Program-made: the position numbers and the translations under genes
Part shown: positions 7,357 to 28,182 of the stretch, piece after piece
Layout of the letters: every line of letters begins with the position of its first letter
Position numbering within the stretch: the first letter of the stretch is position 1
Notes under the pieces: model-generated
Databases searched by the model: none
What the model was told of the DNA's origin: nothing
The model's input: the letters and a program-made list of their open reading frames with translations, nothing else
Assembly: GCA_904374795.1 (NCBI GenBank)
Contig: CAJFEV010000019.1
Span: 1-32,025 of the forward strand
Direction: 5' to 3'
DNA from: an uncultured Bacilli bacterium
GTDB taxonomy: Bacteria > Bacillota_I > Bacilli_A > RF39 > UBA660
Length of the DNA stretch: 32,025 nt

Positions 7357-7397
7357 AAAAAGAAGAAATTTTCTTCATTAATTCATTTCTTCTTTTT
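7357..7397 (-). terminator. Intrinsic terminator of sigG
   Basis: AAAAAGAAGAAAT (5' arm on the minus strand) pairs perfectly over 13 bases with ATTTCTTCTTTTT. The sigG stop codon (7396-7398) abuts the stem. The arms are A/G- and T/C-rich, and the distal arm supplies the T-run. Confidence 0.75.
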
Positions 7398-12496: not shown

Positions 12497-12598
12497 ATAA
12501 AAACTCCTTTAACTTTTATTAAGCATATCAAAAAAAGGGAAAAAAGTACAGGCATTTTTGATGTTTCTACATATGCTTATATAGAAAGGAGTATGGTT

Positions 12599-13529: not shown

Positions 13530-13560
13530 TTTTTCTGAAATCATTCCTTTATTCTCATGT

Positions 13561-13598
13561 AAAAAAGGCAAGAATTTTTCTTCTTAGCCTTTTTTTTC
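13561..13598. terminator. Bidirectional intrinsic terminator
   Basis: AAAAAAGGC-AAGAA pairs with TTCTT-A-GCCTTTTTTTT. It serves the collagen-like gene on the plus strand and the 92-residue gene on the minus strand, whose stop (13584-13586) lies inside it. Confidence 0.8.
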
Positions 13599-13862
13599 TT
13601 CTTTTAAATCAAATTGCATCGCATCAAATAAGGATTTTGTTACTGTAGAAAGTTCTTTTTCATCAAGAACTGGATAAAGTTTATCTGGTTCTATATTATT
13701 TATTGCAGCTTGTTTGTAAATTTTTACATTTTCAGGATTTATATTTTCTTCTTCATCAATTTCTAAAAGTAAATAATAGATTGTATTATTTTCAATTACC
13801 ATAGATGAAATTATGTATTTTTCCTCATCAATTGTTAAAATATCATATAGTTCATAATTCAT
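13584..13862 (-). CDS. Small acidic protein, 92 aa (DUF1292-like pattern)
   Basis: A small acidic soluble protein beginning [20 protein letters not shown]. Its pattern is a short beta-rich segment on a D-E-E-x-Y-I-I theme, then [23 protein letters not shown], then [19 protein letters not shown]. It loosely resembles DUF1292-type proteins of Bacillota, whose role is unknown to me. The frame is open 11 codons further upstream, but that would overlap the preceding gene. The ATG at 13862 lies two bases after its stop, with GGAGG about 13 bases upstream inside it. It is co-transcribed as the last gene of the secretion-like locus. Confidence 0.65.
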
Positions 13863-13863
13863 A

Positions 13864-16344
13864 TTATCTACTTCTTCCTCCCAACTCTTGATCAACTAAA
13901 TTACTTACTTGATCACCAATGTTTCCCTGCAAATTTATAGAATCAATATCAAAGACACCTGTTGGAATTTTATTTTCTAAATAATCTTCTTCTCCACTTT
14001 TCGCTACTCCTGATACACTTTGCAACACTCCACCAGTTGCTTTAATATTATCAATTTTCTCTTGACTATTTGAGTCCTCTATATTAACTGTTTTTATTGT
14101 ACCATCTGGCATTTGATAATTTTCAGCTACGATTCTATAAGAATCATTTTGATAAGTTGGCTTCAACGGTTCATTTAGGTCTGTATTGGCATATATAACA
14201 GGATTTTCATTTAAAGTAAAATCTGTTCCTAATTTTGGCTCTTCCTCAGCTTTAGATGGTTGTTCATTTTCTTCCATTTTTTCTACATTATCAATAATAA
14301 TTGGCTCTAATTTTTCTAATTCTTTATTTTCATTTTGGTCTAAAATTTCTGTTTCTACTTCTTTTACATTAGTATTTTGCTTTCCTAGTTGATATCCCAT
14401 ACCTGCAACAGCAATTAAAGCACCTACAGATAAAGCAATTTGAACTGCTTTCTTTTTTATCATTAGTTTTATTACATCCAATTTTTTTGGCTTTTTAACT
14501 TCTTTAACTTCAACTGGCTTAGCTAATTTTTCCCAAATAGATAAATAACGATTGGCAACTACTTCCATTATTAATGAATATTTTTTATCAAAGGTAAAGA
14601 CATTTCCTTTTATTTCTTGTGAAACTTTTTCTGTGACTGGTTTAGAACAAATCTCATGAATTTTAAGGGTATAATACTCTAATTTTTTTTCATCGGTTAA
14701 TGTTTTTATATATTCTTCATCGATTGTAACATCTAACTCTTCTTTTGAATTTTCTTGTTTAAATAAAAGCAATTTTGATGCAGCTTTTGTAAAAGGTTCG
14801 GTATATAAAGAGTCAATTTCTACCGTTTGATTATCCATAAAAAATTTTACGGGATTTTTACAATCTTTTAAAAGAATTTGATTAATTAAATCTTTACAAT
14901 AATTCACTTTTTCTTCCTTATTTAAAGATTCATAATATTCATCATCAAAAACAATTTTTCCGATTTTATTTTTTGAATCTTCAAGAGCTTGACTAGACAT
15001 TTCATTTTGTATAAACTCTTTAAAAGAAGATTTTGAAAGTATTCTAAGTTCATTATTTAAACTTACAGTCTCTACTTCAGTAATTGTAGAACAATTTAAA
15101 ATTTTATTTTTTTCATTTTCAAACTCTTTTACTTTTTCTTCGCATTCTGTTCGCACTTTTTCAAACATTTCAATTAATCGCCAAAACAAAGAAACATCCC
15201 TTTGATCTACCAGATATTTTTTCCCATTCCAAACAACATTTGTCGGATTATCTATAAAATTATTTGCAATTTTATTTGCCAAATCATCAATATAATTCAG
15301 TTTTTCATCTATACTTAATTTTTCATAGTAATTTTGATCAATTGCGTATTGATAATAACTTGTTTTTTCATGTTCTAATTTTTTTATATTCTTAATTAAC
15401 TCTTCATAAACTTCTTTATATTCAAAGGGAATTTTTTTACCATTTATAATACAAGGAAGCAAGCTTTTATCCGCAAAAACCTCAATCTGAAGCATTAAAT
15501 TAGCCAAATATTGAATTTTTTGATTCTTAGACATTGTGTCAAATAAAACACCATCAATAGAAATTTTTGGTAAATATTCATCATTTAAGATTTTTTCAAT
15601 TTGCTTTAATTTACTCATCAAAATACCATATTTTCCTCGAAGATGTCTCGGTATTCTTTTAGAAAAACGCTGCCCATGGTAAATATCTTTATATGTTATT
15701 TTGCGTCCTTTAGAATTTTCAATTTCTTTTAACACACTTAAAATTTCTTTGCGTTCTTTCATCCATTGTTCTCTTTCATCTGGAGAAGATAATGGCATCA
15801 GTAAAGAGCTAGTTTCTTGAATGATTTCTTCATCTTTATTTTCGGATTGCCAATCAGCTTCCGATAAATAATTATAATTTTTAAGAGTTTCTTCATCTAT
15901 TTTTTCTAAATTTTCCAACGCGTTTTCATAATCTTGTTGTTCTTCAGCATTTAATATTTCTTGATTTTCATAATATTCAATTTTTTTTGAAAAATTTCTT
16001 CGTTGATAGAATAGATGAATTAATCTTTCTTCACTTTCTCTTAATTCCTCTGGAATGCTTTCAATTTCACTTTTAAGATTTAAAGCTTCTTTTGTAAAAG
16101 CTTGAATTGTATCATAATACAGAACTCTTTCTTTTAAATAGGAATCTAATTCTTGTCTTGTTTTTTCATCATTGCTTTGTAAAACTTTTTTCTCTAAATC
16201 TGTAATTACATTATTTAATTCAGGTAATAAATTTGTAAAATCATTTATATCTTTAATTAATTCTTCACGCTTTTTAATTTTTTCATCGCGTTCATTTAAT
16301 GTAGGCTCTAATTTTAAAATAACTTTTTCGATTTCTTCATTCAT
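13864..16344 (-). CDS. Large coiled-coil protein with four internal repeats and one membrane span, 826 aa
   Basis: I do not recognise a family. Residues 1-190 are Glu/Lys-rich and should form coiled coils. Between about 250 and 615 four copies of a roughly 65-residue unit can be aligned (starting near 256, 333, 465 and 540). The shared core is [IF]D-x-x-Y-x-x-L-x-x-x-x-K-x-x-Y, followed by about 20 residues and a short V-x-x-N-G-K-like beta segment. A basic stretch and a single membrane span follow (near 630-652, VQIALSVGALIAVAGMGYQL). The remaining 170 residues are acidic and probably extracellular. With a large cytoplasmic N-part and an outer C-part it could be the scaffold or bitopic VirB8/VirB10-like element of the machine encoded upstream; this is inference. 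Confidence 0.75.
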   Translation of the reverse strand: MNEEIEKVILKLEPTLNERDEKIKKREELIKDINDFTNLLPELNNVITDLEKKVLQSNDEKTRQELDSYLKERVLYYDTIQAFTKEALNLKSEIESIPEELRESEERLIHLFYQRRNFSKKIEYYENQEILNAEEQQDYENALENLEKIDEETLKNYNYLSEADWQSENKDEEIIQETSSLLMPLSSPDEREQWMKERKEILSVLKEIENSKGRKITYKDIYHGQRFSKRIPRHLRGKYGILMSKLKQIEKILNDEYLPKISIDGVLFDTMSKNQKIQYLANLMLQIEVFADKSLLPCIINGKKIPFEYKEVYEELIKNIKKLEHEKTSYYQYAIDQNYYEKLSIDEKLNYIDDLANKIANNFIDNPTNVVWNGKKYLVDQRDVSLFWRLIEMFEKVRTECEEKVKEFENEKNKILNCSTITEVETVSLNNELRILSKSSFKEFIQNEMSSQALEDSKNKIGKIVFDDEYYESLNKEEKVNYCKDLINQILLKDCKNPVKFFMDNQTVEIDSLYTEPFTKAASKLLLFKQENSKEELDVTIDEEYIKTLTDEKKLEYYTLKIHEICSKPVTEKVSQEIKGNVFTFDKKYSLIMEVVANRYLSIWEKLAKPVEVKEVKKPKKLDVIKLMIKKKAVQIALSVGALIAVAGMGYQLGKQNTNVKEVETEILDQNENKELEKLEPIIIDNVEKMEENEQPSKAEEEPKLGTDFTLNENPVIYANTDLNEPLKPTYQNDSYRIVAENYQMPDGTIKTVNIEDSNSQEKIDNIKATGGVLQSVSGVAKSGEEDYLENKIPTGVFDIDSINLQGNIGDQVSNLVDQELGGRSR

Positions 16345-16483: not shown

Positions 16484-16520
16484 AGGTGGAGGATTTCCTT
16501 TTAATTATAACCCTCCACCT
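16484..16520 (-). terminator. Intrinsic terminator after the VirB4 gene
   Basis: AGGTGGAGG pairs perfectly with CCTCCACCT over nine bases, with a 19-base loop, then TTTTG. The upstream arm lies in the last codons of the gene, which encode a Gly-rich tail. The short T-run may allow some read-through. Confidence 0.7.
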
Positions 16521-18289
16521 GAGCCAAACGAATCTAACTCTTCTTGAGTGACAATGATGTTGATTCGCATTCGTCTATTGCCACAAACGAATAAAGCTTC
16601 TCCTTGATTATAGTATTTAATGCTATCTTTTTCACTTTCATTTAAATCAATAAGTTTAGCTAAATCATCCACCGCTTGTTTTCTTAGTCCCATGACTAGA
16701 TAATAGGAAGCATTATCGAATATTGCTTTTCCATGAACAAGTACGTTAGGTGCTGCGAAGTCTGTTGGTTGCTGTGTAATGATAATGGTTCCTGTATTAT
16801 ATTTTCTACTACGACGTTGAATTTGTGCTAGGAACTCTGCTCCCAGTTCATTTTTTGTTGATAATAATACATGAGCTTCATCGACACACATAACTGTGTT
16901 TACTGTTGGATCCAAACATAATCCCCAAGCATACTTTAAAATGTTAAAGAATAACGCATTTCGAATATTTTCATCTGCTGTCATTAATTCTTTAATATTG
17001 AAAACAATAAAATCGCTTTGAATATTTAAGGTAGTATGTCCTGTAAAATAATATCTAAGTTCTTTTACTAATGGTCGAATTTTTAATTCTAATCTTTCCA
17101 TAACATCTCGCTCATGAGTTCGTTCGGTCATGGATAAAAGTCTTCCTTTTATGGTTGCATATACATCATCAAAAGTAGGATAATCTTCACTAGTAAACTT
17201 AGTGTAATCTGTATCATAATCAATTTTATATCGTTTATACGTATCTTGAACTACTTCACTAAACATTGTAAGAACATCTTCTTCAATATCAGGAGAATAA
17301 TATTTCATAAATGCTTTTAATTGTTGAATAGTTCTAGTTAATACTGTATATCCTAAACCTTGATTAATTTCCTCTTCATCTGCATCGATAACAATTTCAA
17401 GGGGATTTACCATTCCGAATTCTCCACCTTTTCCAAGATCCAAGAAATCTCCTCCCATTGATAAAGCCATTTCTTCTAGTTCACCTTCTGGGTCAATACA
17501 AACAAGTTTGTATTCATTTCTGATATGACTTCTAAGTAATAATTTGGCTGCAGTAGATTTTCCAGATCCTGAAGCGCCAAGGATAATAATGTTGGCATTA
17601 TTACGATTATTCTCTTTTTTTATTTGATATAGAAATTGGTTAAATAAAATAACTCCACCAGAGAAATCTACTCCTAAAAGAGTGCTATTTCCAGGGTCTT
17701 TAATACTATCAAATATAAATGGATACATGGCGGCGATTGTTACAGATGGAATTGGTGCGCCTACACGGTCTTCTATGTCTTGTTTAGGAAAAATAGGAAT
17801 CATGGATTTAATAACTTTTTCTTGTTCAAACATTAAAGAGATTCCTCGCATACCTAATGCATCAAGATAATTTCGAACTTGCATTTTTTTATTTTCCATA
17901 TCATCTTTTGTCTCAGCTGAAATTAGAATATGTAATTGGAAATCAAAAATTCTTGATTGAGTTGCAACTAACATAGATATAAACTGTTCTAGGGATTCGT
18001 AATCTTGACGGATACGTTCTTGAATCGTTTTGTCATGTTCACTTTGATAGCGAGTTTTTAAGTCAGCAATTTCTTTATTGATCATTCTCTGTAAGGTAGA
18101 TAATTCAATTGGAATGTGTTTAGCAACAATTTTAATTCCTGAAAGATTCGTTAAATTAGCAAGATATCCAGGTTGAATGAATTTTGGATAACTTACAATG
18201 GTTAAAATAGTACAGTATCTTCCACTCATCATAAATTCTGTTGGTTTAAATTCAATCCCCTTTGGGGCTATTTGTGCTTTTAAATTCAT
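16505..18289 (-). CDS. virB4: VirB4/PrgJ-type secretion ATPase (main part)
   Basis: The 594-residue energy-providing ATPase of a type IV secretion-like machine, acting at the inner face of the membrane. Walker A is GASGSGKST (residues 238-246), Walker B is VMCVDEAH (Asp470-Glu471), and QRRSRKYNTGTIIITQQP follows, as usual in VirB4/TraE/TrbE ATPases. The normal N-terminal VirB4 domain is incomplete here and appears to be supplied by the upstream 188-residue gene, to which this gene is coupled by TAATG (stop and start share a base at 18289). The neighbours PrgI and the VirB6-like protein support the assignment. The C-terminus is a short Gly-rich tail. Confidence 0.92.
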   Translation of the reverse strand: MNLKAQIAPKGIEFKPTEFMMSGRYCTILTIVSYPKFIQPGYLANLTNLSGIKIVAKHIPIELSTLQRMINKEIADLKTRYQSEHDKTIQERIRQDYESLEQFISMLVATQSRIFDFQLHILISAETKDDMENKKMQVRNYLDALGMRGISLMFEQEKVIKSMIPIFPKQDIEDRVGAPIPSVTIAAMYPFIFDSIKDPGNSTLLGVDFSGGVILFNQFLYQIKKENNRNNANIIILGASGSGKSTAAKLLLRSHIRNEYKLVCIDPEGELEEMALSMGGDFLDLGKGGEFGMVNPLEIVIDADEEEINQGLGYTVLTRTIQQLKAFMKYYSPDIEEDVLTMFSEVVQDTYKRYKIDYDTDYTKFTSEDYPTFDDVYATIKGRLLSMTERTHERDVMERLELKIRPLVKELRYYFTGHTTLNIQSDFIVFNIKELMTADENIRNALFFNILKYAWGLCLDPTVNTVMCVDEAHVLLSTKNELGAEFLAQIQRRSRKYNTGTIIITQQPTDFAAPNVLVHGKAIFDNASYYLVMGLRKQAVDDLAKLIDLNESEKDSIKYYNQGEALFVCGNRRMRINIIVTQEELDSFGSGGGL

Positions 18290-18855
18290 TATGGACTCAC
18301 CATCCCACTAAAAGTTGTCGCTTGACCGCCATTAAAGAAATTATCTAAAATTACTCGTAAGTCATTATTGCTTGTTTGTTGACTATTTAAACCGCAATTA
18401 GCTAAATTACTAATTAATGTATGTAATCTTTTTTGAATGACATCCATTCTTTTTTCTTTAAATAAAATATAATATTCAGTATCTACAACGTTATATTCAG
18501 CGCTCATGAACATGTTGGCTTTATTAATATCTTGAGTAATTAGTTTTCTTGTAACTGGATTTGTTGCTTGGTTGTAAAGAATTTGAAGTTGGGAAAGATA
18601 TACATTTATATCAACGGGACGATCAGCAACGATTAACCAAAATTCAAAATTGATTGCATTATAGAAATTTCTTAATTGGTAAATCACATTATCTCTAGTT
18701 CCAGCATCTAAAATAAAGATATTTCGAGGAGCAACTTTAACTCCTGTTACATATTCTCCGTTTTCTAGCTGAATCATTCCGTTCATAATGTTTTTTAATG
18801 GTACCCAATCTTCACTCCATTTACTAGACAATTCTTGTTTTTTATTTTTCGCCAT
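18289..18855 (-). CDS. VirB4 N-terminal-domain protein (split VirB4 / TraC-like), 188 aa
   Basis: A soluble protein corresponding to the N-terminal region of VirB4/TraC-type proteins: WVPLKNIMNGMIQLENGEYV, then a beta-rich part and INFEFWLIVADRPVDINVYL. The helical middle contains YYILFKEKRMDVIQKRLHTL, like the CagE/VirB4 N-domain that touches the membrane complex. It has no P-loop. It is joined at one end to PrgI by a 14-base overlap and at the other to the ATPase by TAATG. So VirB4 is either split into two co-translated chains here, or this is a small partner common in Gram-positive systems. No sign of a frameshift remnant is seen at the junction. Confidence 0.78.
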   Translation of the reverse strand: MAKNKKQELSSKWSEDWVPLKNIMNGMIQLENGEYVTGVKVAPRNIFILDAGTRDNVIYQLRNFYNAINFEFWLIVADRPVDINVYLSQLQILYNQATNPVTRKLITQDINKANMFMSAEYNVVDTEYYILFKEKRMDVIQKRLHTLISNLANCGLNSQQTSNNDLRVILDNFFNGGQATTFSGMVSP

Positions 18856-19153
18856 CTTTATAACACCAGCCTTTCCAATAATACCTCTTTCTATTCATTA
18901 TAAATGTAACAATATTTGTAATTAATTGCAAGACATTATGATAATTAGGAACGGGAATGACTAAGAATCCTGATATTAAAGCTGGCATCAATATTAATAT
19001 AGCCATATTGAAAGTCATTCCTTGAAATATTAATAACATTATAACTGTAATCGTAACACCAACACCAAAAATAATTAAATCAATTGGTGTGAAAAATCCT
19101 AATATAAGTTTAGACTTTTTGGTATTTGCTGGTATTAAATAATTTTGATCCAT
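18842..19153 (-). CDS. prgI: PrgI-family membrane protein, 103 aa
   Basis: A small membrane protein of the PrgI type found in Gram-positive conjugation systems next to VirB4. It opens MDQNYLIPANTKKSKLILGF, has two close hydrophobic segments (about residues 24-46 and 49-68) and ends in a basic, aromatic tail (RKRYYWKGWCYKDGEK). AAGGGGA precedes the ATG. The gene order VirB6-like, PrgI, VirB4 copies that of prgH-prgI-prgJ in the enterococcal plasmid pCF10. It probably helps assemble the membrane channel. Its end overlaps the next gene by 14 bases. Confidence 0.85.
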   Translation of the reverse strand: MDQNYLIPANTKKSKLILGFFTPIDLIIFGVGVTITVIMLLIFQGMTFNMAILILMPALISGFLVIPVPNYHNVLQLITNIVTFIMNRKRYYWKGWCYKDGEK

Positions 19154-19167
19154 AATCTATCCCCTTT

Positions 19168-21288
19168 CTATTTATTTTTCTTTGCAGCTTCACGTTTTTG
19201 CAATTCTTTATATTCAATACTTTGTTTTAATTCTTTATTTTGATCATTTAGTTCTTTAATTTGAGCTTTTATACCCTTTGTTGGGTTACCATTATTATCT
19301 AAAATAGGATTCCCAACCATATCCATACCTTCAAATATTTGCCGCAATTCAGCCTCGCTAAGTGCAGCATTTGTTGACTTTCTGTAAACATCATTTTCTT
19401 TTAACACAAGATCATTAATGTCAATTCCATTAAGGTTAAAATCCGCTTCAGCAGCGCTTTTATAATTTTCTTTTGCAAACTGTGCTAAATTATATGCAGC
19501 ATAAGCAACTGCCTTACGATTTTTGTGAATTGTATCATATCTACTTTGCTGCATAGTATTCTCTAATTGAGCTATTAATCCATTAATGTTTTGGCCATCT
19601 ACCGTAGTTACACCAGCATCTCTTTTGGCTTTATAATCATTTAATAATGCATCCATATTCTTATATGGAGGAGTTTCAAATAGTTCTTTGTAAGATTCGT
19701 CATAAGTCTTTTTAGCATCGTCTCTAAATTTGATTTTTGAAAGTATACCACCCGTAAATCCACTTCCAGTAGTCCATTTATAAACGTCTTCAGCAGCTTC
19801 TATTACTTTAGCTCTTGCTGCACCAATAAGTCCATTATTTGAAGCAACATAATTTGCTCTTTTTTTACTATTTTCCCAACTAATGTCAGCACCTGTTCCA
19901 GCTGCTTTTACCATATCGCCAAAGTTTTTAGCATCCTTCCCCCCATTCTTGTATGCATTAAACATACCAGAAGTGCTTCCAACAATAGTTGATAATGCTC
20001 CTGTACCAATTCCTGCAATTGTACTACCAGCATTTATAAGTCCTGACTTAATATCTCCTCTTCTAAATGCATTAAAAGTATTATAGCCTTTTCTAGCAAT
20101 ATTTTGTCCTGCAGCAATGACATTTCTAGGTATTCCAGTAACTCCTGCCCCAAGCATAGCTCCACCAGCAAAGAATCCACCAGCTTTAAGTTTCTCACCG
20201 ATACCAAGTTTTATGCTTCCTGAATTTATGCCTAATACATCACTTATCATTTTTGGGGCTTGTTTTGCGAAAGTTAATATTCCCATAATGATTATTACTA
20301 AGGCAAGCATTCCTTGAATCCCGCCACTAAAGAAACTCCCCCACATATCACTTTCGACTAATCCATTTATTAAATATATCGAAATATACATAATAGCAAC
20401 TCTAACAAATATTTCAAAAAATATTGATAAAGTTAATTTTAGCCATTGGTCAAAAGTTCCTTTTTTTCCTGGCATAGCTCTCATTATTACAGGAATTGGC
20501 GCAACAAGTTGACAAAACGCGAGTTTTGCTACACGCACTCCTAAATCCAGCGTAAATGACAGCATAATATAACATAAATAAACCCCAGCTATTGTTGATA
20601 TTACGACTTTATAATCAATATACACTTCTTGTCCTGCATTTTTTCCACTTACGACGTTTGCTCCTTCAACAATAGGTTTAGCTAAACCTGTTAAGGAGCC
20701 ATAATTCCCATCATGAAGTATTTCATATTTTACATCAAACCAAGTTTTTTGACTATCACCTAGTCGTACATTATAGTTGTCTGAATTCAAAAAAGTATTC
20801 AAAACAGTAAATGATATTGCATCTCCATATCGTATCATGCTATTTTCATTATCGTCCGATACATCAATTGTTGGTGTTCCAAAAACTAAAGAACCGATTA
20901 CATTGGATGATAATATATAATTTTGTAATCGATAGGCATACTCGAAAATTGATGGTAATAACCCTAATATTACTAATGAAATAACTAAATTGGATGCTAA
21001 TTTTGATACACTTTTATCTCCTTTTGCTAATTTTTCCGGATCAACTAAAGCGTTTAATAAAGCATATGCTAAATAAAAAAGCATGAATACACCTAATATA
21101 GAATATATTCTATTAGCAAAATTATTATAAAAATTGTTGTCAAAAATTTGAGCCATAGATAATTTCATAAATAATTGATAGCATTGAGCTGCAAACCAGT
21201 AAATAACACTATCAAACCAAAGCATTACTGATTGAAAGAAACTATTTATCCAATCTCCTAGGAAATTCATTGTAAATATTCCATTCAT
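19168..21288 (-). CDS. VirB6/TrbL/PrgH-like polytopic channel protein, 706 aa
   Basis: A large membrane protein forming the probable channel of the system. Several hydrophobic segments lie within residues 1-345 (for example near 50-75, 98-118, 222-250, 285-305 and 318-340). A Gly/Ala-rich region follows (about 355-440, LKAGGFFAGGAMLGAGVTG), then a soluble tail of more than 250 residues ending in a coiled coil (IKELNDQNKELKQSIEY). This layout fits VirB6/TrbL proteins of Gram-positive systems, which often carry long C-terminal tails. The start has a strong ribosome binding site (AAGGGAGGTG). It follows the C39-pilin fusion gene by 13 bases and precedes prgI by 14, so all are one operon. Confidence 0.85.
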   Translation of the reverse strand: MNGIFTMNFLGDWINSFFQSVMLWFDSVIYWFAAQCYQLFMKLSMAQIFDNNFYNNFANRIYSILGVFMLFYLAYALLNALVDPEKLAKGDKSVSKLASNLVISLVILGLLPSIFEYAYRLQNYILSSNVIGSLVFGTPTIDVSDDNENSMIRYGDAISFTVLNTFLNSDNYNVRLGDSQKTWFDVKYEILHDGNYGSLTGLAKPIVEGANVVSGKNAGQEVYIDYKVVISTIAGVYLCYIMLSFTLDLGVRVAKLAFCQLVAPIPVIMRAMPGKKGTFDQWLKLTLSIFFEIFVRVAIMYISIYLINGLVESDMWGSFFSGGIQGMLALVIIIMGILTFAKQAPKMISDVLGINSGSIKLGIGEKLKAGGFFAGGAMLGAGVTGIPRNVIAAGQNIARKGYNTFNAFRRGDIKSGLINAGSTIAGIGTGALSTIVGSTSGMFNAYKNGGKDAKNFGDMVKAAGTGADISWENSKKRANYVASNNGLIGAARAKVIEAAEDVYKWTTGSGFTGGILSKIKFRDDAKKTYDESYKELFETPPYKNMDALLNDYKAKRDAGVTTVDGQNINGLIAQLENTMQQSRYDTIHKNRKAVAYAAYNLAQFAKENYKSAAEADFNLNGIDINDLVLKENDVYRKSTNAALSEAELRQIFEGMDMVGNPILDNNGNPTKGIKAQIKELNDQNKELKQSIEYKELQKREAAKKNK

Positions 21289-21301: not shown

Positions 21302-22369
21302 TTATGTTCCGATGTTACATCTACTTAAATCGTATAAACCGAATAACTCAAACAATATATCTAAAATGAAAGGTAAAAAGAAAATGATTAATCCTACAAT
21401 TAAACGTTTAATTGTTCTTCCATTTGCTTTTTTCATTTCCTCTGCATTAGAAGCAGCAATTGCTTTAATGTAATCAAACGTAGACAGAGCGATTACAATT
21501 ACTGGAGTAGCAATTTTTATTAGGGTAAATAATCCTTGAACAAAGTCGTACAAGTCTGTATAGTTTCCGTCTTCATCAATAAAGATTGTGCTACATCCAT
21601 CATTTTCTTCTCGCTCTACATTTCCAAAAATTTCTCCCCAATCCGAATAACAATCTTCTGTTCTTCCAGAAGCATTTGGATCACATGCATCATCACTACT
21701 TGTTGTTCCATTACCAGTTGTATTTGAGCAATTGTTTAGAATGACTGAATGGAGTCCCATATACTGATTTAAAGGTCTAATCACTTCATGCTCAATATCT
21801 TCTTTTGAATACCATCCACTTGTTCTATATGGTTCATTAACTTTAGCAGTATTTATTACATAATATTGATCACCATTTTTTAAGGCTATGGCTACATAAT
21901 GTCCTGAATTCCCTGAAGAAAATCTGCTAGCACTAGTTACTGAGGCTAATACAGTTTTATTTTGAGCTAATGCTGTATCTATCGCAGCAATATTTCCTTC
22001 AATTTTTTCAACTTTCATATTAAAATTATCAAAAAAAGGTTGGCTTTGAATAATATTTCCATATTGTCTAGCTTGCGCATCATCGGGGTAATTATAACAT
22101 AAATAACCTGATACATTTTGTGGTTTTATATCCACCGCTCCATAACTTGCTAAAATAGATGCAATAGTGAGGGGAAAACATCCTGATGTACACAAATTAT
22201 TCTGTCCGTCGCAAGTATTTCTTGAATTTTTACAATACGGAATATCATCAAAATCTACAGCCGCATAAGTAATAATACTATCTTCAGTCAATTTACATTC
22301 TGCAGCATTTGCTTCTATATTAAAGCAAAAAAACATAATGATTAAAAATATATATATTGTTTTTTTCAT
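21302..22369 (-). CDS. Secreted C39-like cysteine peptidase fused to a VirB2/TrbC-pilin-like membrane module
   Basis: A signal peptide (residues 1-23, ending EANAA) leads into a papain-fold domain of the C39-like type. The likely catalytic Cys64 lies in CTSGCFPLTIASILASYG, the His near 156 in SGHYVAIALKNGDQYYVINT, and the third residue is the Asn near 172. After a Ser/Thr-rich linker, a CSTIFIDEDGNYTD motif precedes two membrane spans (about 277-298 and 321-345) separated by a Lys-rich loop (AEEMKKANGRTIKR). The last part is the shared module of seven neighbouring genes and closest to that of the amidase. Other extracellular Cys residues suggest disulfides. It may trim cell-wall peptides or other exported partners; the substrate is unknown. 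It has its own extended -10 promoter. Confidence 0.82.
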   Translation of the reverse strand: MKKTIYIFLIIMFFCFNIEANAAECKLTEDSIITYAAVDFDDIPYCKNSRNTCDGQNNLCTSGCFPLTIASILASYGAVDIKPQNVSGYLCYNYPDDAQARQYGNIIQSQPFFDNFNMKVEKIEGNIAAIDTALAQNKTVLASVTSASRFSSGNSGHYVAIALKNGDQYYVINTAKVNEPYRTSGWYSKEDIEHEVIRPLNQYMGLHSVILNNCSNTTGNGTTSSDDACDPNASGRTEDCYSDWGEIFGNVEREENDGCSTIFIDEDGNYTDLYDFVQGLFTLIKIATPVIVIALSTFDYIKAIAASNAEEMKKANGRTIKRLIVGLIIFFLPFILDILFELFGLYDLSRCNIGT

Positions 22370-22389
22370 AGTAATTCACACTCTCATTT

Positions 22390-22398
22390 ATTATATCA
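22390..22398 (-). promoter_or_regulatory. Extended -10 promoter of the C39-VirB6-PrgI-VirB4 operon
   Basis: TGATATAAT on the minus strand; no clear -35 box. It lies 20 bases upstream of the C39-fusion start, in the 56-base gap after the amidase gene. Confidence 0.55.
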
Positions 22399-22425
22399 TC
22401 TTTTATATTTGATTACTAGGTAAAA

Positions 22426-23643
22426 TTACTCACCTATTCCACATGTACTTATGTCATAAAGTCCAAACAATTCAAATAGGATTTCTAATAAATATGGTAG
22501 GAAAAATACTAGCAAACCAATTACTATTCGCTTGATAGTTCTTTTATTTGCTTTTTTCATTTCATCTGCATTAGATGCAGTAATTGCCTTAATATAATCA
22601 AAGGTAGACAGAGCAGCAACAATTATTGGAGCCGCTATTTTTATTAAAGTAAATATTTCTTGCATAAATTCATGAAACTGTGTATAGTTTCCAAATTCAT
22701 CTACGAAAATTGTTCCGCATCCTTCACTATTCTCTGTGAAAACATCAATATTTGCAAATACATTAGGATATGGATCTATAGTTCTTCCGCCACTAACATA
22801 CATTGAACCACTTCCATCTTTTTTTGCTCCTGGAGCCTTTTCTGCAATAAAATTGGCTATTGTTTGAGCAACTTCTGATTGATTATTTAAGTAAGATGTG
22901 AATTGCTGTTGATTATCCATAAAAGCAGTTTCTAAATAGTATACAGGAATACTTCGATTTGAATAAAAATTCGTAATTGTACCTAAACTTCCCACACTTG
23001 TTGCACCCGAATCCGTGTCTCTTTTATACTGTCCATATCCTACTCCGATCGCATCAGCAACAGCTTGAGCAAGCTCTAAACCGGAATTTTCTGTAGTATT
23101 ATCCCTTCCAAATACGACACTATAATCTCCGCCGCCTCCGTTAAAATGGACTTCTAATACTAAGGAATAGTTTGCAATTCCTTTTTCATCTACATGATTC
23201 AATAGATTTTTACTATACGTACCTATTGATGCTGTTCTAAAACCGCAACAACTACTTGTATTTGGATTTGTACAATTTCTAGCTTCATTTCTTGTTGCCG
23301 GATCGTTTGACCAATAGGCATCTCCTACAATTTGATTTGCTATTTCATAATTTATTCCTAAATCTTCTAGATATCCTGCAATTCGATTAACTAATTTTCT
23401 TGCTTCAATATTTTCATAGTAGCTTGTTCCATTAATTGTAGTGCTTGCATGATTGCAATCTTTTCCTAAACCATGAGCTGCTATTAATAATACGGTTTTA
23501 CTAGCAGAATCATTTTGAGCAAGCAAATTTAAAGTGTCTGTTGAAATACCAATTCTTTTAGAATCTTTTATTATATTATAGATACAAGCTATACTTAATA
23601 TTGTGCATAATATAATTATAATTTTTTTCATATAACCACACAT
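22426..23643 (-). CDS. N-acetylmuramoyl-L-alanine amidase (Amidase_3) fused to a pilin-like membrane module
   Basis: An exported peptidoglycan hydrolase that cuts the muramic acid to L-Ala bond. After an N-terminal membrane anchor comes an Amidase_3 domain with a full zinc and catalytic set: His57 (LLIAAHGLG), Glu77 (YYENIEAR), His166 (LVLEVHFNGGGG) and Glu238 (PVYYLETAF). The C-terminal part (CGTIFVDEFGNYTQ, then two spans around a DEMKKANKRTIKR loop) is nearly the same as in the neighbouring C39 fusion. Conjugation machines usually carry a separate VirB1-type hydrolase; here it is tethered to the pilin-like module. ATG 23643 has AAGGA five bases upstream; ATG 23631 is an alternative. It has its own promoter and follows a terminator. 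Confidence 0.88.
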   Translation of the reverse strand: MCGYMKKIIIILCTILSIACIYNIIKDSKRIGISTDTLNLLAQNDSASKTVLLIAAHGLGKDCNHASTTINGTSYYENIEARKLVNRIAGYLEDLGINYEIANQIVGDAYWSNDPATRNEARNCTNPNTSSCCGFRTASIGTYSKNLLNHVDEKGIANYSLVLEVHFNGGGGDYSVVFGRDNTTENSGLELAQAVADAIGVGYGQYKRDTDSGATSVGSLGTITNFYSNRSIPVYYLETAFMDNQQQFTSYLNNQSEVAQTIANFIAEKAPGAKKDGSGSMYVSGGRTIDPYPNVFANIDVFTENSEGCGTIFVDEFGNYTQFHEFMQEIFTLIKIAAPIIVAALSTFDYIKAITASNADEMKKANKRTIKRIVIGLLVFFLPYLLEILFELFGLYDISTCGIGE

Positions 23644-23661
23644 TGCTTTCCTTACCAATTT

Positions 23662-23690
23662 ATTATAGCAATTATTTATAAACATTTCAT
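23662..23690 (-). promoter_or_regulatory. Promoter of the amidase-fusion gene
   Basis: On the minus strand, -35 ATGAAA (23685-23690), 17 bases, then TATAAT (23662-23667) preceded by TGC. It begins just after the terminator of the preceding gene. Confidence 0.65.
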
Positions 23691-23692
23691 TA

Positions 23693-23715
23693 AAAAAACT
23701 GGATTTTTCCAGTTT
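23693..23715 (-). terminator. Intrinsic terminator after the 202-residue gene
   Basis: AAACTGGA-AAAA-TCCAGTTT, a perfect eight-base stem followed by Ts, directly after the stop at 23716. Confidence 0.85.
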
Positions 23716-24324
23716 CTATTTACAACTTCCAACATCCCATATGCACTTAAAGCACTCTTCGTAACTTCCTTGATATGTTGTTTCCCAACCATCAACCCAG
23801 CCAAATATCAAATCGATAAACGCTGGTAAAAAGAAAATACATACACCTGCTATGCAACGCATGATTAGGGATTTAAAGGATTTTTTTATTTCATCATCCT
23901 TTGAGCCTACCACAGCTTTAAATAAATCAAGCATTCCAAACCCTATTATGATAATAGGAATCAAAATTTTTGCTAAACGAACAATATGTCCAATAATGGT
24001 AAAAGTATCTTTTAGTCCTTCACAATAGTTTGTAGTGTTGGATGTTACGTTTGTTTCAGTATTTGTGTTTTGATTTGATTCAGAACTTGTATTTACAGCC
24101 ATATAAAAGTCACATGCTTGAGTTCCATTGCTCATATTGCAACAATAAAAGTAATCATACTTACTGTCAGCATTATTTATTTCGTCTGATGCCGCTCTTC
24201 CATACAGAGTTGTTTCATAAGTCCATAATTCTTGATTCTGTAAATCACATACTGCTGCTGCTGAAACATTCTGACAAATCATAAAACTCAACAATATTAT
24301 AGCTGTATACAACGCTTTTTTCAT
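23716..24324 (-). CDS. Exported pilin-like module protein with small Cys-containing ectodomain, 202 aa
   Basis: Signal peptide (1-22, ending VSAA), then a 75-residue extracellular part with a Cys pair (FYCCN) and an Asn/Thr/Ser-rich linker. The shared module follows: Cys101, a first span, GMLDLFKAVVGSKDDEIKKS (loop 142-148), a second span and a C-terminal Cys191-x-x-Cys194 plus Cys201. If the signal peptide puts the N-terminus outside, the charged loop is cytoplasmic and all module Cys residues are outside, as for two-span VirB2/TrbC pilins. The start overlaps the previous stop (TAATG at 24324). Function beyond the scaffold role is unknown. Confidence 0.8.
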   Translation of the reverse strand: MKKALYTAIILLSFMICQNVSAAAVCDLQNQELWTYETTLYGRAASDEINNADSKYDYFYCCNMSNGTQACDFYMAVNTSSESNQNTNTETNVTSNTTNYCEGLKDTFTIIGHIVRLAKILIPIIIIGFGMLDLFKAVVGSKDDEIKKSFKSLIMRCIAGVCIFFLPAFIDLIFGWVDGWETTYQGSYEECFKCIWDVGSCK

Positions 24325-25157
24325 TATTTACACTCCCTTACATTTAGCACACACTTTTGACAAGCATTAAATTCTCCTTCAATGCTAGCCCAAGAATCTA
24401 CTAATGAGAATATAAAACTTACAATCGTTGGAATTAAAAAGATTACTATACCCGCTATAACACGAAAAATTAAAGAACGGAATGATTTTTTTATTTCATC
24501 ATCTTTTGAACCAACCATTGCTCTAAAGAAATCAATCATTCCAAATGCTATAATAATTATTGGAATAATTATTTTAACTATTAGTACAATGTTTCCAATA
24601 AATTTTAGTGGTTCTTTTAATTTACCACAGTATTCTGATGACTCTAAAGTAGTATTTGTATTATGTTCTGAATTTTGATTTTCTTGTGTCGTATTTTGGG
24701 TTTCTTTTTCGCTATTGTAATAATAGATATCTCCTGGCTCTCCTGGACCTTTTGCATTGCCCATTTCAATGCGATTTTTGCTTGTAATTGAAGCTCCCAT
24801 TTCTACTAAACGATCAAATGTGTAAGTACGACAAGAATTTTCCGTTTCACATAATACATAATTTCCGTCAGCATTTTGATAGAAGTACATTCTCGTTTTT
24901 CCATATAAAGTCTCATAATAATCTTCTTGATATTCTTCATCATAAAAATATGAATATCCTTGATAAATAATTTCTTCATCTGACAAATTAAAAGTTACAT
25001 TATCTTGTCCCGGTTGTACAGAAAAGCATTGAAATGGTCCTTCAGCACATAACATATAATTTCCATCATCCATAAGATAATAATATCCAGCAGCATTTGC
25101 TGTTAAAATAGATGTAAAAAATATTATTAGCGAAAATATTATCCATTTTATTTTCAT
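24324..25157 (-). CDS. Exported pilin-like module protein with duplicated ectodomain motif, 277 aa
   Basis: Signal peptide (1-23, ending TANAA). The ectodomain holds two copies of a Y-x(1,2)-DGNY-x-LC-x(6)-C motif, near residues 26-45 (DDGNYMLCAEGPFQC) and 91-113 (ADGNYVLCETENSC), which probably form two small disulfide-closed beta units. A Thr/Asn/Gln-rich linker leads to the shared module starting at Cys177: first span, GMIDFFRAMVGSKDDEIKKS, second span and a Cys-x-x-Cys tail. The gene starts two bases after the stop of the lipoprotein gene and overlaps the next gene by one base, so these three form one unit. No enzyme motif is seen. Confidence 0.8.
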   Translation of the reverse strand: MKIKWIIFSLIIFFTSILTANAAGYYYLMDDGNYMLCAEGPFQCFSVQPGQDNVTFNLSDEEIIYQGYSYFYDEEYQEDYYETLYGKTRMYFYQNADGNYVLCETENSCRTYTFDRLVEMGASITSKNRIEMGNAKGPGEPGDIYYYNSEKETQNTTQENQNSEHNTNTTLESSEYCGKLKEPLKFIGNIVLIVKIIIPIIIIAFGMIDFFRAMVGSKDDEIKKSFRSLIFRVIAGIVIFLIPTIVSFIFSLVDSWASIEGEFNACQKCVLNVRECK

Positions 25158-25159
25158 TA

Positions 25160-26419
25160 TTAATTCGTCCCTTCTATTTTACATGAGTTACTATTGCATG
25201 AATTTACATCACAATCAGGATTTAACAGGCAATCTGTACAGCAACACCATGAATTTTTATAATTTGACCAATCATTTACCCAATTTAGTATAAATTGAAT
25301 GATTCCTGGTAACAAGAAAATTGCAATTCCAGCAATTATTCTTATAACAATTGATTTTACAGATTTTTTTATTTCATCATCTTTTGATCCAGTTACAGCT
25401 TTATATAAATCTACTACTCCAAAAGCTATAATGACAATTGGAACAATAATTTTTAGGAAATTTACAATTGTTCCGATAAATTTCATTGGTTTACGATATG
25501 AAGGACTTGCACATATATAGTCAACATTGGTATCTTCAATATTATAATTTGGTGGAGACTCTTCTTCCTCTTCTAACTCTTCTTCTGATGATGGTGGTGT
25601 CGGATTTTCTTCTCCCTCATCTACATAATTGTATTTATCAGGATGAGTTGTTATATAAAGTACTGTTTGCGTTTCCATACCATATAAAGCTAAATATAAA
25701 TCATTAGAATTTGGAAATGTGACGTCATCTCCATTTATATTAAAAATATCATCATAATCCGAACTATCAATAGCAATGTATTTATTCTGTGCTTGAATAG
25801 AGACAAACATGGATTTGTCAACAATTTCATGTTCGACATTATCTAAATAAAAATAAGATTTTTTTGTTTCTGGATCATATCCAAAAGAGAATTCAAAATT
25901 TCGATTCATTTCATCACTATATTTTTTATAAGTTCTGCTTTTGATTATATCTTTCGTTTCTTCAGCATTTTTATATAAGAAACATAATCCCATTTGTCCA
26001 TCTCCAGCAGCACACGAATCTAATAGTTCTGCAGATGTAGGATTATTTATATTCACACCAATAAATATTTGAGATGGGCATCCGTTTCCGCGATAATTTT
26101 CTAAAAAATCAAGTAATGTTTCTTCATCAATATCTAATGGATAATCTCCAACGGTAATTGTGTGAAGTCCATTATTATCATATAAATTGTTTTTCTGACC
26201 ATTTAATGTAACGTATACTCCTTTAGAATCGGCAGTAAATTGTATTCTATAGTTGCTTGATGGATATGGATCTGTATCCTCATATTGTGTTGAAACAAAA
26301 GTACAATTTAAAGAATCCAGCTCTTCTTTATATTTATCATATACATCATCGTATCCACATCCTGTTAAAAAAAGAATAGTTATTGTACTTAAAATCATTA
26401 ATTTTATTTTAAATTTCAT
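25160..26419 (-). CDS. Lipoprotein with pilin-like membrane module, 419 aa
   Basis: The N-terminus is a lipoprotein signal with lipobox FLTGC (Cys21). The ectodomain of about 280 residues is rich in Asp, Tyr and Asn and probably beta-type (IAIDSSDYDDIFNINGDDV, for example). I do not recognise it. A very acidic linker (EEELEEEEESPP) precedes the shared module from Cys303, with loop GSKDDEIKKS and an unusually Cys-rich tail (WCCCTDC, then more Cys). It is anchored both by lipid and by two spans. It is first in a three-gene unit, with its own extended -10 promoter and GAAGGA upstream of the ATG. It may be a receptor or adhesin; that is a guess. Confidence 0.8.
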   Translation of the reverse strand: MKFKIKLMILSTITILFLTGCGYDDVYDKYKEELDSLNCTFVSTQYEDTDPYPSSNYRIQFTADSKGVYVTLNGQKNNLYDNNGLHTITVGDYPLDIDEETLLDFLENYRGNGCPSQIFIGVNINNPTSAELLDSCAAGDGQMGLCFLYKNAEETKDIIKSRTYKKYSDEMNRNFEFSFGYDPETKKSYFYLDNVEHEIVDKSMFVSIQAQNKYIAIDSSDYDDIFNINGDDVTFPNSNDLYLALYGMETQTVLYITTHPDKYNYVDEGEENPTPPSSEEELEEEEESPPNYNIEDTNVDYICASPSYRKPMKFIGTIVNFLKIIVPIVIIAFGVVDLYKAVTGSKDDEIKKSVKSIVIRIIAGIAIFLLPGIIQFILNWVNDWSNYKNSWCCCTDCLLNPDCDVNSCNSNSCKIEGTN

Positions 26420-26447
26420 ATAAATCCCTACTTTTTCCTTCTTTTTT

Positions 26448-26456
26448 ATTATAACA
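26448..26456 (-). promoter_or_regulatory. Extended -10 promoter of the lipoprotein-277-202 unit
   Basis: TGTTATAAT on the minus strand, about 16 bases beyond the terminator stem at 26473-26495; its -35 region falls within the terminator arm and no good -35 box is seen. Confidence 0.55.
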
Positions 26457-26472
26457 ATATTTAACGTGAAAA

Positions 26473-26495
26473 ACTAGTAATTTTACATTACTAGT
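26473..26495 (-). terminator. Intrinsic terminator after the 390-residue gene
   Basis: ACTAGTAAT pairs perfectly with ATTACTAGT around a five-base loop, followed by TTTTT. The TAG stop codon (26491-26493) is part of the stem. Confidence 0.85.
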
Positions 26496-27663
26496 CATTA
26501 TCGCTCTCTTGAATTATACATTTACTTGAATTATTTGGGTCTGTAAGACAATTAACACAATTTGAAAAGTCACTTGTTTCTCCAGGTGATATGATATCAT
26601 CTGCGATATCAAAAACGAAATTAATTAATGATGGCAATAAAAAGATTAATATCCCTATTACTATATTTCTAATAATATTTTTTACTTGTTTTTTGGCTTC
26701 ATCTTCTTTTCCTGATGTTATTATTTTAAATAATGTTACAAATCCCATAATAATTATAATTGCTGGTACAAGTATTTTAGCTATAAAAATAATTAATCCT
26801 ATAAATTTTAATACCCTTGATACGGTTGGTTCTCCACAAAATCCATTTAAATTAATATCGCAATTTTCTTCGTCTTTACATAATTTATTCGGAGAAAATC
26901 CTTCTTGTTTTTCTGGTTCATGTTCTACTACTTCTCCATTATTTCGATGCAATAAAACTTCTTCTCTTCCCGTTCCGTCTGATGTATATAAATAACATTT
27001 TTCTGCCCCGTCTTCCTCTCTACATAATTCATAAATTTTATCTGGACAAGTAGTGAGATGACTAACTCCCATTCGAATATTAGCATATGCTGGATCACTT
27101 GATTCTATTTTTGCAAGCGAATCTCCAGCATTAAATCGAATAATGAAATCTCCATATTCACAATTGTTATCGTAATTTGGTTCGACGGCTGTGTGTTGGC
27201 AGGTATTTGCATCCACATTTTGAGTAGATTCTTCCTCTATTAAAGAAGCACTATTGGAGTATCCTCCAGATGAAGTAGCAGACACGCCAATTGTAGCCGA
27301 AACTAAATCCATTTCTCCATTTCTTTCCTCATTACTTTGTTTATAGAAAATTTTACTAGGACACGCATAAGGTTTGTCAGGATCGTCAGTTTCAAAATCG
27401 GATATGGTCATGGCTATTGAACCTTTTTTACACTCAATTCCGCTTATTGTGCTTTCGCATGTAAAGGTTGGTTCTCCACAATCAAATCTTACAGTCACTT
27501 TTGCAAAATTTAAATTATATTTATCTTTCAAATCATCTGATAAATGAGTGTTTTCTGCAAGTTTACCAACACTATAAACACACTCTAAAGCTGCTGCATC
27601 CGCTAATTTAATTGTACAAAAAAATACAATAGCAAAAAAAAGAATACGATTAATTTTTTTCAT
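26491..27663 (-). CDS. Exported Cys-rich protein with pilin-like membrane module, 390 aa
   Basis: Signal peptide (about 1-23, ending LADAA), then a Cys-rich ectodomain of about 250 residues with many spaced Cys (CVYSV, RFDCGEPTFTCES, IECKKGS), probably disulfide-linked. It contains a Ser-rich stretch (SATSSGGYSNSASLIEE). I do not recognise the fold. The shared module begins at Cys276 with the most diverged loop of the set (SGKEDEAKKQVKN in place of SKDDEIKKS) and ends in Cys-x-x-Cys plus one more Cys. The ATG at 27663 is preferred to the GTG four codons upstream. Promoter and terminator flank it, so it is a single-gene unit. Confidence 0.8.
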   Translation of the reverse strand: MKKINRILFFAIVFFCTIKLADAAALECVYSVGKLAENTHLSDDLKDKYNLNFAKVTVRFDCGEPTFTCESTISGIECKKGSIAMTISDFETDDPDKPYACPSKIFYKQSNEERNGEMDLVSATIGVSATSSGGYSNSASLIEEESTQNVDANTCQHTAVEPNYDNNCEYGDFIIRFNAGDSLAKIESSDPAYANIRMGVSHLTTCPDKIYELCREEDGAEKCYLYTSDGTGREEVLLHRNNGEVVEHEPEKQEGFSPNKLCKDEENCDINLNGFCGEPTVSRVLKFIGLIIFIAKILVPAIIIIMGFVTLFKIITSGKEDEAKKQVKNIIRNIVIGILIFLLPSLINFVFDIADDIISPGETSDFSNCVNCLTDPNNSSKCIIQESDND

Positions 27664-27692
27664 TATAAATCCCACATTTCTTTTATACGTTC

Positions 27693-27701
27693 ATTATAGC
27701 A
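27693..27701 (-). promoter_or_regulatory. Extended -10 promoter of the 390-residue gene
   Basis: TGCTATAAT on the minus strand, ten bases after the terminator T-run of the preceding gene; no good -35 box. Confidence 0.55.
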
Positions 27702-27710
27702 ACTATTTCA

Positions 27711-27740
27711 AAAAAAAACTAGTAATTCTACTAGTTTTTT
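27711..27740 (-). terminator. Intrinsic terminator after the 129-residue gene
   Basis: AAACTAGTA-GAAT-TACTAGTTT, a perfect nine-base stem with T-runs on both strands. It begins within the stop codon region of the gene ending at 27739 and shares the ACTAGTA core with the terminator at 26473. Confidence 0.88.
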
Positions 27741-28128
27741 ACACTTCTCCCTTCCATACATCGTCGGCTAATGGCGCACATTCATTTCCGTATGGTGATG
27801 ATATACATGCTCGACATATGTTGTAATCATCCATTGCCCCAGAAGATGAGAAGTTAGAAATCATTCCAATAATTACACTTACTAATGTTGGAATAAAGAA
27901 AATCAAGATTCCAGCTATAGCACGGAATGCTAAAGATTTAGTTGCTTTTTTAATCTCATCATCTTTAGCAGCTACAACTGCTTTACCTAAATCCAACATT
28001 CCCCAAACAATTAACAGAATAGGAATTACTATTTTAAATACTAATAATACAATGCCGACAATTTGCCAAATATTTGCTGTATTCATGCAAAATCCAATTT
28101 CTGAACCAGCTTCAATTGTTCCATTCAT
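27739..28128 (-). CDS. Minimal VirB2/TrbC-pilin-like membrane protein, 129 aa
   Basis: The simplest member of the seven-gene family, with almost only the shared module. A short head with Cys14 is followed by a first span (about 22-43), the loop GMLDLGKAVVAAKDDEIKKA (43-62), a second span (about 68-92) and a tail with Cys105, Cys108 and Cys117. Size and two-span layout match VirB2/TrbC pilins, though VirB2 loops are usually shorter. No classic signal peptide is seen. It is first in the locus, behind the strongest promoter, which fits a structural subunit needed in many copies. GAGG lies nine bases upstream of the ATG. Confidence 0.82.
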   Translation of the reverse strand: MNGTIEAGSEIGFCMNTANIWQIVGIVLLVFKIVIPILLIVWGMLDLGKAVVAAKDDEIKKATKSLAFRAIAGILIFFIPTLVSVIIGMISNFSSSGAMDDYNICRACISSPYGNECAPLADDVWKGEV

Positions 28129-28153: not shown

Positions 28154-28182
28154 ATTTTATATTTAAACGTTTCACAAGTCAA
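28154..28182 (-). promoter_or_regulatory. SigA-type promoter of the pilin-like array
   Basis: On the minus strand, -35 TTGACT (28177-28182), 17-base spacer, -10 TAAAAT (28154-28159). It is the best consensus promoter in the window and lies directly after pyk, behind which I see no terminator. Confidence 0.75.

Follow-up and report, generated by a model that had tools for sequence, protein, structure and literature searches.

Why should seven adjacent genes beside a secretion apparatus end in the same small membrane module and carry different domains in front of it? This question was raised by a locus in a 32,025-nucleotide stretch of DNA (the window; contig CAJFEV010000019.1 of assembly GCA_904374795.1, positions 1 to 32,025) from an uncultured bacterium of the order RF39. 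The answer that we hold to be probable is a domesticated chromosomal type IV secretion system (T4SS) of the conjugation type, whose minor pilins were customised for contact with other cells. The array, the secretion core and their associated signals all lie on the minus strand.

A shared C-terminal module in seven adjacent genes

Read from position 28128 to 21302, the genes of the array encode proteins of 129, 394, 419, 277, 202, 419 and 355 amino acids, and a common C-terminal two-helix module of about 100 residues was present in 7/7 of them. The first protein, p129 (27739-28128), is the module alone (a "bare" module, hereafter) and is the candidate major pilin. It is followed by p394 (26491-27675) with a Cys-rich, beta-rich ectodomain, p419L (25160-26419) with a lipoprotein-like signal (LTGC) and an ectodomain, p277 (24324-25157) with two DGNY motifs in its ectodomain, p202 (23716-24324) with a short ectodomain, p419A (22426-23685) with an Amidase_3 ectodomain and p355 (21302-22369) with a Peptidase_C39-like ectodomain, the last being directly upstream of virB6. 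A signal-peptide-like N-terminal hydrophobic segment was found in the six proteins other than p129. Seven minus-strand genes with the same terminal module, in this order and of roughly these sizes, had been described in the original prediction; its lengths of 390 and 405 residues for p394 and p419A apply if internal ATGs are the starts (27663 is the likely start of p394), whereas the open frames give 394 and 419.

Pairwise BLASTP among the seven proteins gave E values from 2e-50 to 2e-4, and a module profile, which includes the modules themselves, matched them with E values from 2.5e-46 to 7.9e-33. Eleven alignment columns were invariant (Cys14, Lys32-Ile33, Pro36, Glu58, Lys60-Lys61, Gly73, Phe77, Pro80 and Cys117). 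Among 268 modules compared, a Cys precedes the first helix in 264 and follows the second in 262, and this pair flanking the two helices is perhaps a disulfide clamp. A Cys-x-x-Cys tail was found in five of the seven modules; those of p419A and p355 have a short tail without it and the loop S-T-F-D-Y-I-K-A...A-(D/E)-E-M-K-K. The single motif claimed earlier was thus confirmed as a module common to all seven, but it falls into two subfamilies with different loops. Chance or artefact was excluded because orthologous arrays in the same order recur in many species of the genus, and an origin of this kind was rejected on their recurrence in many independent metagenome-assembled genomes (MAGs).

The pilin identity of the module was suggested by modest profile scores, position and anatomy. 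PF18895 (T4SS_pilin) was among the Pfam matches of all seven window modules and was the best in five; in p419A and p355 the family of the ectodomain ranked above it. It took the place of the proposed family VirB2/TrbC (PF04956), which was not among the Pfam matches of any window module. Scored as whole proteins, the seven reached 15.6-23.6 bits (p129, 17 bits) against a curated cut-off of 26.6 bits, and p277 passed it with 27.1 bits in the genome search. Order-wide, PF18895 was the leading family at E<=0.01 for 40/65 bare modules and 55/139 ectodomain proteins, usually below the curated cut-off, with a best match among bare modules of E 1.3e-7. The module is a small protein with two hydrophobic helices and a charged loop, as the PF18895 design requires. 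AlphaFold modelled p129 as a helical hairpin (residues 18-53 and 56-89; mean predicted local distance difference test score, pLDDT, 85), and in p394 the module helices were confident and the ectodomain was beta-rich with low confidence (mean pLDDT 59.5). The VirB2-like two-span design that had been assumed was therefore matched by the kind of hairpin that pilins have, but when PDB was searched by Foldseek with the p129 model, no T4SS pilin was retrieved (nothing at E<=0.001, lowest E 1.4), a search that is uninformative for a hairpin. Against PDB sequences the module profile gave spurious ion-channel and rhodopsin matches only, and p129 had no match among plasmid sequences. Since a profile comparison of the module with the plain pilins of four mobile-element relatives was not significant (probability 3%), kinship with the Mbov_0395-type pilins is argued from position. 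On this evidence the modules may be pilins and may polymerise into a pilus. The two N-terminal spans of VirB6 in several loci (L098, L105, L113 and others) weakly matched the iterated module profile at 17-36 bits, a possible sign of distant kinship or just of hairpin similarity.

The low PF18895 scores and the lack of a pilin in the Foldseek and profile comparisons would also fit a module that is no pilin, but a generic two-helix membrane anchor for surface proteins and wall enzymes, standing beside the T4SS by accident. Such an anchor is likewise favoured by some genomes, among them G066, in which four tandem copies lie far from virB4 with the module first (L280 3255-8936; a part of 300-450 residues stands behind the module). 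We regard it as improbable, since PF18895 was by far the commonest family match and since the bare version of 110-130 residues, whose orthologues occur order-wide, displays nothing and would be needless for an anchor.

The secretion core and its distribution over the order RF39

Downstream of the array lie a VirB6-like polytopic protein with a hypervariable C-terminal half (19168-21288; NF045848, the MMCAP2_0566 family, E 3.5e-6), a PrgI/TcpE/VirB3-like protein (18842-19153; TcpE E 0.003, PrgI E 0.01), a TrsD-like N-terminal part of VirB4 in a gene of its own (VirB4N, 18289-18855; 188 residues) and the TrsE-like ATPase part (VirB4C, 16505-18289; 594 residues, TraG P-loop 44 bits). A VirB4 ATPase with VirB3- and VirB6-like partners characterises a VirB4-based T4SS, so that the array indeed stands in a T4SS-like locus with VirB4, PrgI and VirB6 as first proposed, with VirB4 present as two genes instead of one. 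Along NF045975, a model of 894 positions for the VirB4 of mycoplasma integrative conjugative elements (ICEs), PrgI aligned with positions 2-96 (weakly, 13.9 bits), the 188-residue protein with 93-276 (53.5 bits) and the 594-residue protein with 294-891 (337 bits); because the three align successively, one chain in the mycoplasma ICE corresponds to three genes here. The ATPase part also matched the VirB4 structure 4ag5 (E 1.6e-64), and NF045848, matched by VirB6, is likewise a family from these ICEs. VirB4N and VirB4C are joined by a TAATG overlap in the window, and the split is order-wide, with an overlap of 4 bases or 1 base in 73/91 loci. TrsD is described as a relative of the VirB4 N-terminal part (PMC12102498), and by its alignment the 188-residue gene corresponds to TrsD in those terms. 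Downstream of virB4 lies p826 (13864-16344; 826 residues, a single transmembrane span late in the protein), whose membership in the system is uncertain; it matched no Pfam family and, among the genomes sampled, occurs only in this species and the five relatives nearest to it.

The distribution was evaluated in 117 genomes of 67 genera of the order and in a class-wide sample of 395 genomes (54 in the order, 341 of other orders); MAGs are incomplete, and several of the genus loci are cut by contig ends. The module was found in 107/117 genomes of the order with 1-16 copies each, and in the class sample in 50/54 genomes of the order compared with 1/341 of other orders. VirB4N was present in 100/117 genomes, two of them with ICE-type matches only (core about 98/117), and the coupling protein VirD4 (type IV coupling protein, T4CP) in 108/117. 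Of 35 further genomes of the genus, 33 had VirB4C, in most cases at 90-99% identity. The search for related runs that had been called for recovered at least three adjacent module genes upstream of virB6 in 17/22 loci of the genus and in 10/68 loci of other genera. Among gut Bacilli the block is a core locus of a single order, inferred as RF39; Candidatus Coprovivens, among the named VirB4 relatives, is placed in that order by PMC8035907. Genomes without the module also lacked VirB4N (p 1e-7) and T4CP (p 8e-8), p values that shared ancestry and incomplete assemblies inflate, and this joint absence speaks against a generic anchor. The association with absence of DUF5411 was weak (p 2e-4), and with ComEC there was none (p 0.47).

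The last result bears on a system for DNA uptake, like ComB, or for DNA release, in place of a device for contact or protein delivery. Helicobacter pylori ComB is a relaxase-less T4SS used in transformation and provides a precedent, and ComEC was found in 110/117 genomes. However, 6/7 genomes without module, VirB4N and T4CP keep ComEC, so competence appears independent of the T4SS and the ComB-like reading is weakened. PilB-type and PilT-type ATPases, which could serve uptake, are nearly universal, and the conserved VirD4 argues for export. A DNA uptake or release system is thus unlikely.

The homology of the core proteins with those of ICEs and plasmids could further mean that an ordinary ICE is merely common in the order. 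The core is single-copy, order-wide and of the same gene order, however, and the mean column identity of VirB4C is 80% within the order, against about 33% or less to other VirB4 proteins of relatives and plasmids. A PF03432 relaxase was found in 32/117 genomes only, and none was recognised among the genes neighbouring the sampled core loci; in G014, for instance, the relaxase shares its contig with a separate VirD4 and a larger VirB4, and other genomes hold a separate accessory VirB4 of about 780-830 residues besides the core. An ordinary ICE is accordingly very unlikely. Outside the order, relatives that share this core resemble mobile elements. Plasmid pEYLC1.2 of Exiguobacterium (NZ_CP082335) encodes a MobP3 relaxase, VirD4, one plain pilin of 130 residues, VirB6, VirB3, VirB4N and VirB4, with RcpC/CpaB, AAA and T2SSE genes nearby, and three Bacilli loci outside the order (L273, L275, L277) have just one short membrane protein immediately upstream of VirB6. 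The plasmid and the mycoplasma ICE core (NCBIfam Mbov_0395/0396/0397) share with RF39 the order pilin, VirB6, VirB3 and VirB4, and the plasmid also shares the separate VirB4N and the RcpC/CpaB, AAA and T2SSE neighbours; unlike RF39, the plasmid has its one plain pilin and its relaxase, and in the mycoplasma family model VirB3 and VirB4 form a single protein. Because these outside relatives have a single plain pilin, the array and the ectodomains look like innovations inside the order.

The T4SS-like locus predicted in the window is real, but it forms just the central part of a larger system, the rest of which lies on another contig. Many other genera have the Tad-like genes first, with F2 at their end, and then bare module, ectodomain modules, VirB6, PrgI, VirB4N, VirB4C, F0, a lipoprotein-like protein and VirD4. 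The Tad-like genes comprise DUF5411, an RcpC/CpaB-like protein, a T2SSE ATPase, two platform-like proteins, small pilin-like proteins and F2; F0 is a SpoIID/CHAP- or C39-type protein (SpoIID by eye, with a Pfam match for the C39 end only). In the first set of loci, a module gene followed within two open reading frames of F2 in 42/42 cases. On contig C11 of the window genome, F0 and VirD4 come straight after the Tad-like genes and F2, with no such block in between, and the same flanks without the middle were found in G013. The window block was therefore taken as the relocated middle of one cluster, now beside pyruvate kinase in this genus. The C11 region (G000; L160 3328-19900) holds two RcpC-like genes, a T2SSE ATPase, DUF5411, a 1127-residue secreted-type protein, the SpoIID/C39-type protein and VirD4. 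The VirD4 scored 184 bits to PF02534, as a T4SS coupling protein, and the ATPase 92 bits to T2SSE (NCBIfam VirB11 109 bits, TadA 100 bits); RcpC reached 26 bits, just below its cut-off, and the TadB/C- and pilin-like genes had no Pfam matches. By gene order, VirD4, the SpoIID/C39-type protein and the Tad-like pilus probably belong to the same system as the window block, and the Tad-like pilus may cooperate with it.

Two module classes and the turnover of their ectodomains

In a tree of the 268 modules, class A (p129, p394, p419L, p277, p202) was apart from class B (p355, p419A), with a support of 0.845 for the wider split. The position directly upstream of virB6, taken by one plain pilin in mobile-element relatives, was that of 73/97 class B genes, a placement that speaks against a generic anchor. 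Recognisable wall hydrolases were found on about 24/73 class B ectodomain proteins and, apart from one weak YkuD match, on 0/66 of class A (p 2e-8). The class B matches in Pfam were NlpC/P60 (8), C39 (7), Amidase_3 (6), VgrG3-like (2), M15_4 (1) and Amidase_5 (3), the last of which may overlap with others. In the window, the p419A ectodomain reached 26.9 bits to Amidase_3, just below the cut-off of 27, with predicted catalytic residues, assigned by eye, in AAHG (His), YENIE (Glu), EVHFN (His) and YYLET (Glu); the p355 ectodomain reached 21.7 bits to Peptidase_C39_2, just below the cut-off of 24, with Cys in GCFPLT, His in GHYVAI and Asn in INTAK assigned likewise. The idea of several activities on a common base agreed with the differing ectodomains, but the combination is not a free-for-all, as recognisable hydrolases are confined to the VirB6-proximal class. 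Overall, 140 ectodomains fell into 63 BLAST groups with 48 singletons, and most matched no family. The p394 ectodomain family was found in both classes, on 22 proteins of class A and 3 of class B, which suggests exchange between the module classes.

Modules are under purifying selection, and ectodomains are replaced between sister species. Compared with the sister species G034 (VirB4C 99% identical), the window modules were 88-93% identical with a ratio of nonsynonymous to synonymous substitution (dN/dS) of 0.02-0.07, values that are rough because dS is near saturation in many pairs. The ectodomains of p394, p419L and p202 were only 28-37% identical to those of G034; those of p277, p419A and p355 were 77-88% identical and were strongly divergent or replaced in other species. 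The proposed comparison of module and ectodomain thus revealed a sharp contrast, and a simple anchor would not call for selection as strong as that on the module. The C-terminal half of VirB6 (from about residue 350) was about 20% identical to that of G034 and 40-74% identical to that of the more distant G013, which suggests domain exchange. Parts that encounter variable partners would be expected to be replaced in this way.

A terminator-like signal also set the bare module apart. Directly 3' of p129, a hairpin with a T-run resembling an intrinsic terminator (27711-27735, -7.7 kcal/mol) was found that a generic scan had missed. Terminator-like structures followed 49/86 bare class A genes compared with 13/181 other module genes (p 2e-18), as expected if the major subunit is made in excess. 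A promoter-like site, TTGACT-N17-TAAAAT, lies upstream of p129 (28154-28182, 10/12 match), and such sites were no commoner in the region than in shuffled sequence. Elsewhere in the window, 12593-13648 encodes a collagen-like Gly-x-y protein whose repeat leaves the frame near its end, which could be an assembly error. A Sigma-G-like sigma factor (7396-8175) and a YlbJ-like protein (9358-10242), recognised by eye, are consistent with a spore former.

A proposed customised contact machine and its relation to known systems

In the mechanism that we propose for the domesticated T4SS, the system would descend from, or share an ancestor with, the conjugation machines of Bacilli and mycoplasma mobile elements. 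The split VirB4 (TrsD- and TrsE-like), PrgI/VirB3 and VirB6 would form the membrane platform, and p129 would be the major pilin that builds a filament or an inner pilus, made separately because transcription would partly stop behind its gene. The ectodomain-bearing copies would be minor pilins, keeping the hairpin in the membrane or filament and the N-terminal part outside. At the base, beside VirB6, class B with its wall hydrolases or other ectodomains may open the wall where the machine sits, so that a VirB2-like subunit would take on the role of VirB1, and the copies of class A may act as contact heads with fast-changing recognition domains.

Several points weigh against this mechanism, beyond the pilin scores under the curated cut-off and the Foldseek and profile comparisons described above. 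No relaxase was found in the window genome by PF03432, a search by which relaxases of other families would be missed. In genera in which the two clusters are separate, the bare module remains beside the Tad-like genes, so a p129-type module might be an accessory of the Tad-like pilus. G059 and G126 have the Tad-like cluster without a T4SS, and T4SSs occur without DUF5411 in other genomes; the link between the two is therefore not obligatory. More doubtful than the customised T4SS itself is a bolder form of it, in which nearly the whole order would live by neighbour contact through one composite machine of Tad-like pilus and T4SS, with minor pilins as interchangeable heads, some of them enzymes that cut walls, either at the base or directed against the neighbour, and others fast-changing recognition domains that set the target range.

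The closest comparison is with the T4SS of Patescibacteria (PMC12102498), made here by description. It is likewise chromosomal, in reduced genomes, with a monoderm-type core of PrgI, TrsD, VirB4 and VirB6, mostly without a relaxase, and with type IV pili present; its arrays of 2-11 divergent VirB2-like pilins were partly found with PF18895. A pilin-like array adjoining such a core is what was found in the window. The system is essential in Southlakia epibionticum (PMC10633639), whose essential pilin array is a precedent for a relaxase-less monoderm T4SS with pilins. The claim that no ectodomain-swapped set had been described must accordingly be narrowed: pilin arrays in monoderm T4SSs are known, but these papers (PMC10633639, PMC12102498) describe pilins without ectodomain fusion. 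Patescibacteria also belong to another phylum, mostly have no VirB1 alongside, and have most T4CP genes away from virB4, the T4CP of S. epibionticum being non-essential, whereas that of RF39 is conserved. Wall hydrolases on class B pilin-like proteins and, in many genera, a Tad-like cluster in the locus distinguish RF39. The Kil/Tad pilus of Myxococcus (PMC12075869) is similarly customised by several minor pilins with variable, interchangeable tips, is tied functionally to a second secretion apparatus and is used on contact with other cells; it combines Tad minor pilins with a needleless type III secretion system, while RF39 has T4SS-type hairpin modules and a T4SS core. Gram-positive conjugation systems of the MPF_FATA type (pGO1, pCF10 and others) share the TrsC/TrsD/TrsE-like arrangement and the T4CP, but are described without VirB2 pilins and with a separate VirB1-type hydrolase (PMC12102498, PMC12857230).

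Reviews describe Gram-positive T4SSs as lacking VirB2 pilins, Patescibacteria excepted, and functions of these systems other than DNA transfer are a long-standing question (PMC12857230). RF39 bacteria have been described as uncultivated, their genomes being reduced and their auxotrophies many (PMC6784871), and a peptidoglycan wall is described for most of them (PMC10868615). By titles and abstracts, the three papers that mention both RF39 and T4SSs do not deal with the subject, and term searches in papers on these orders found no T4SS. With the present locus, a second lineage, this time of true Bacilli that are common in animal guts, is seen to conserve a relaxase-less T4SS with pilin-like arrays, and its pilin-like subunits fused to wall hydrolases and hypervariable ectodomains are an anatomical novelty. 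The plasmid and ICE relatives let the change from conjugation to another use be traced, and the system is a candidate reason why the auxotrophic, uncultured RF39 bacteria may need partners.

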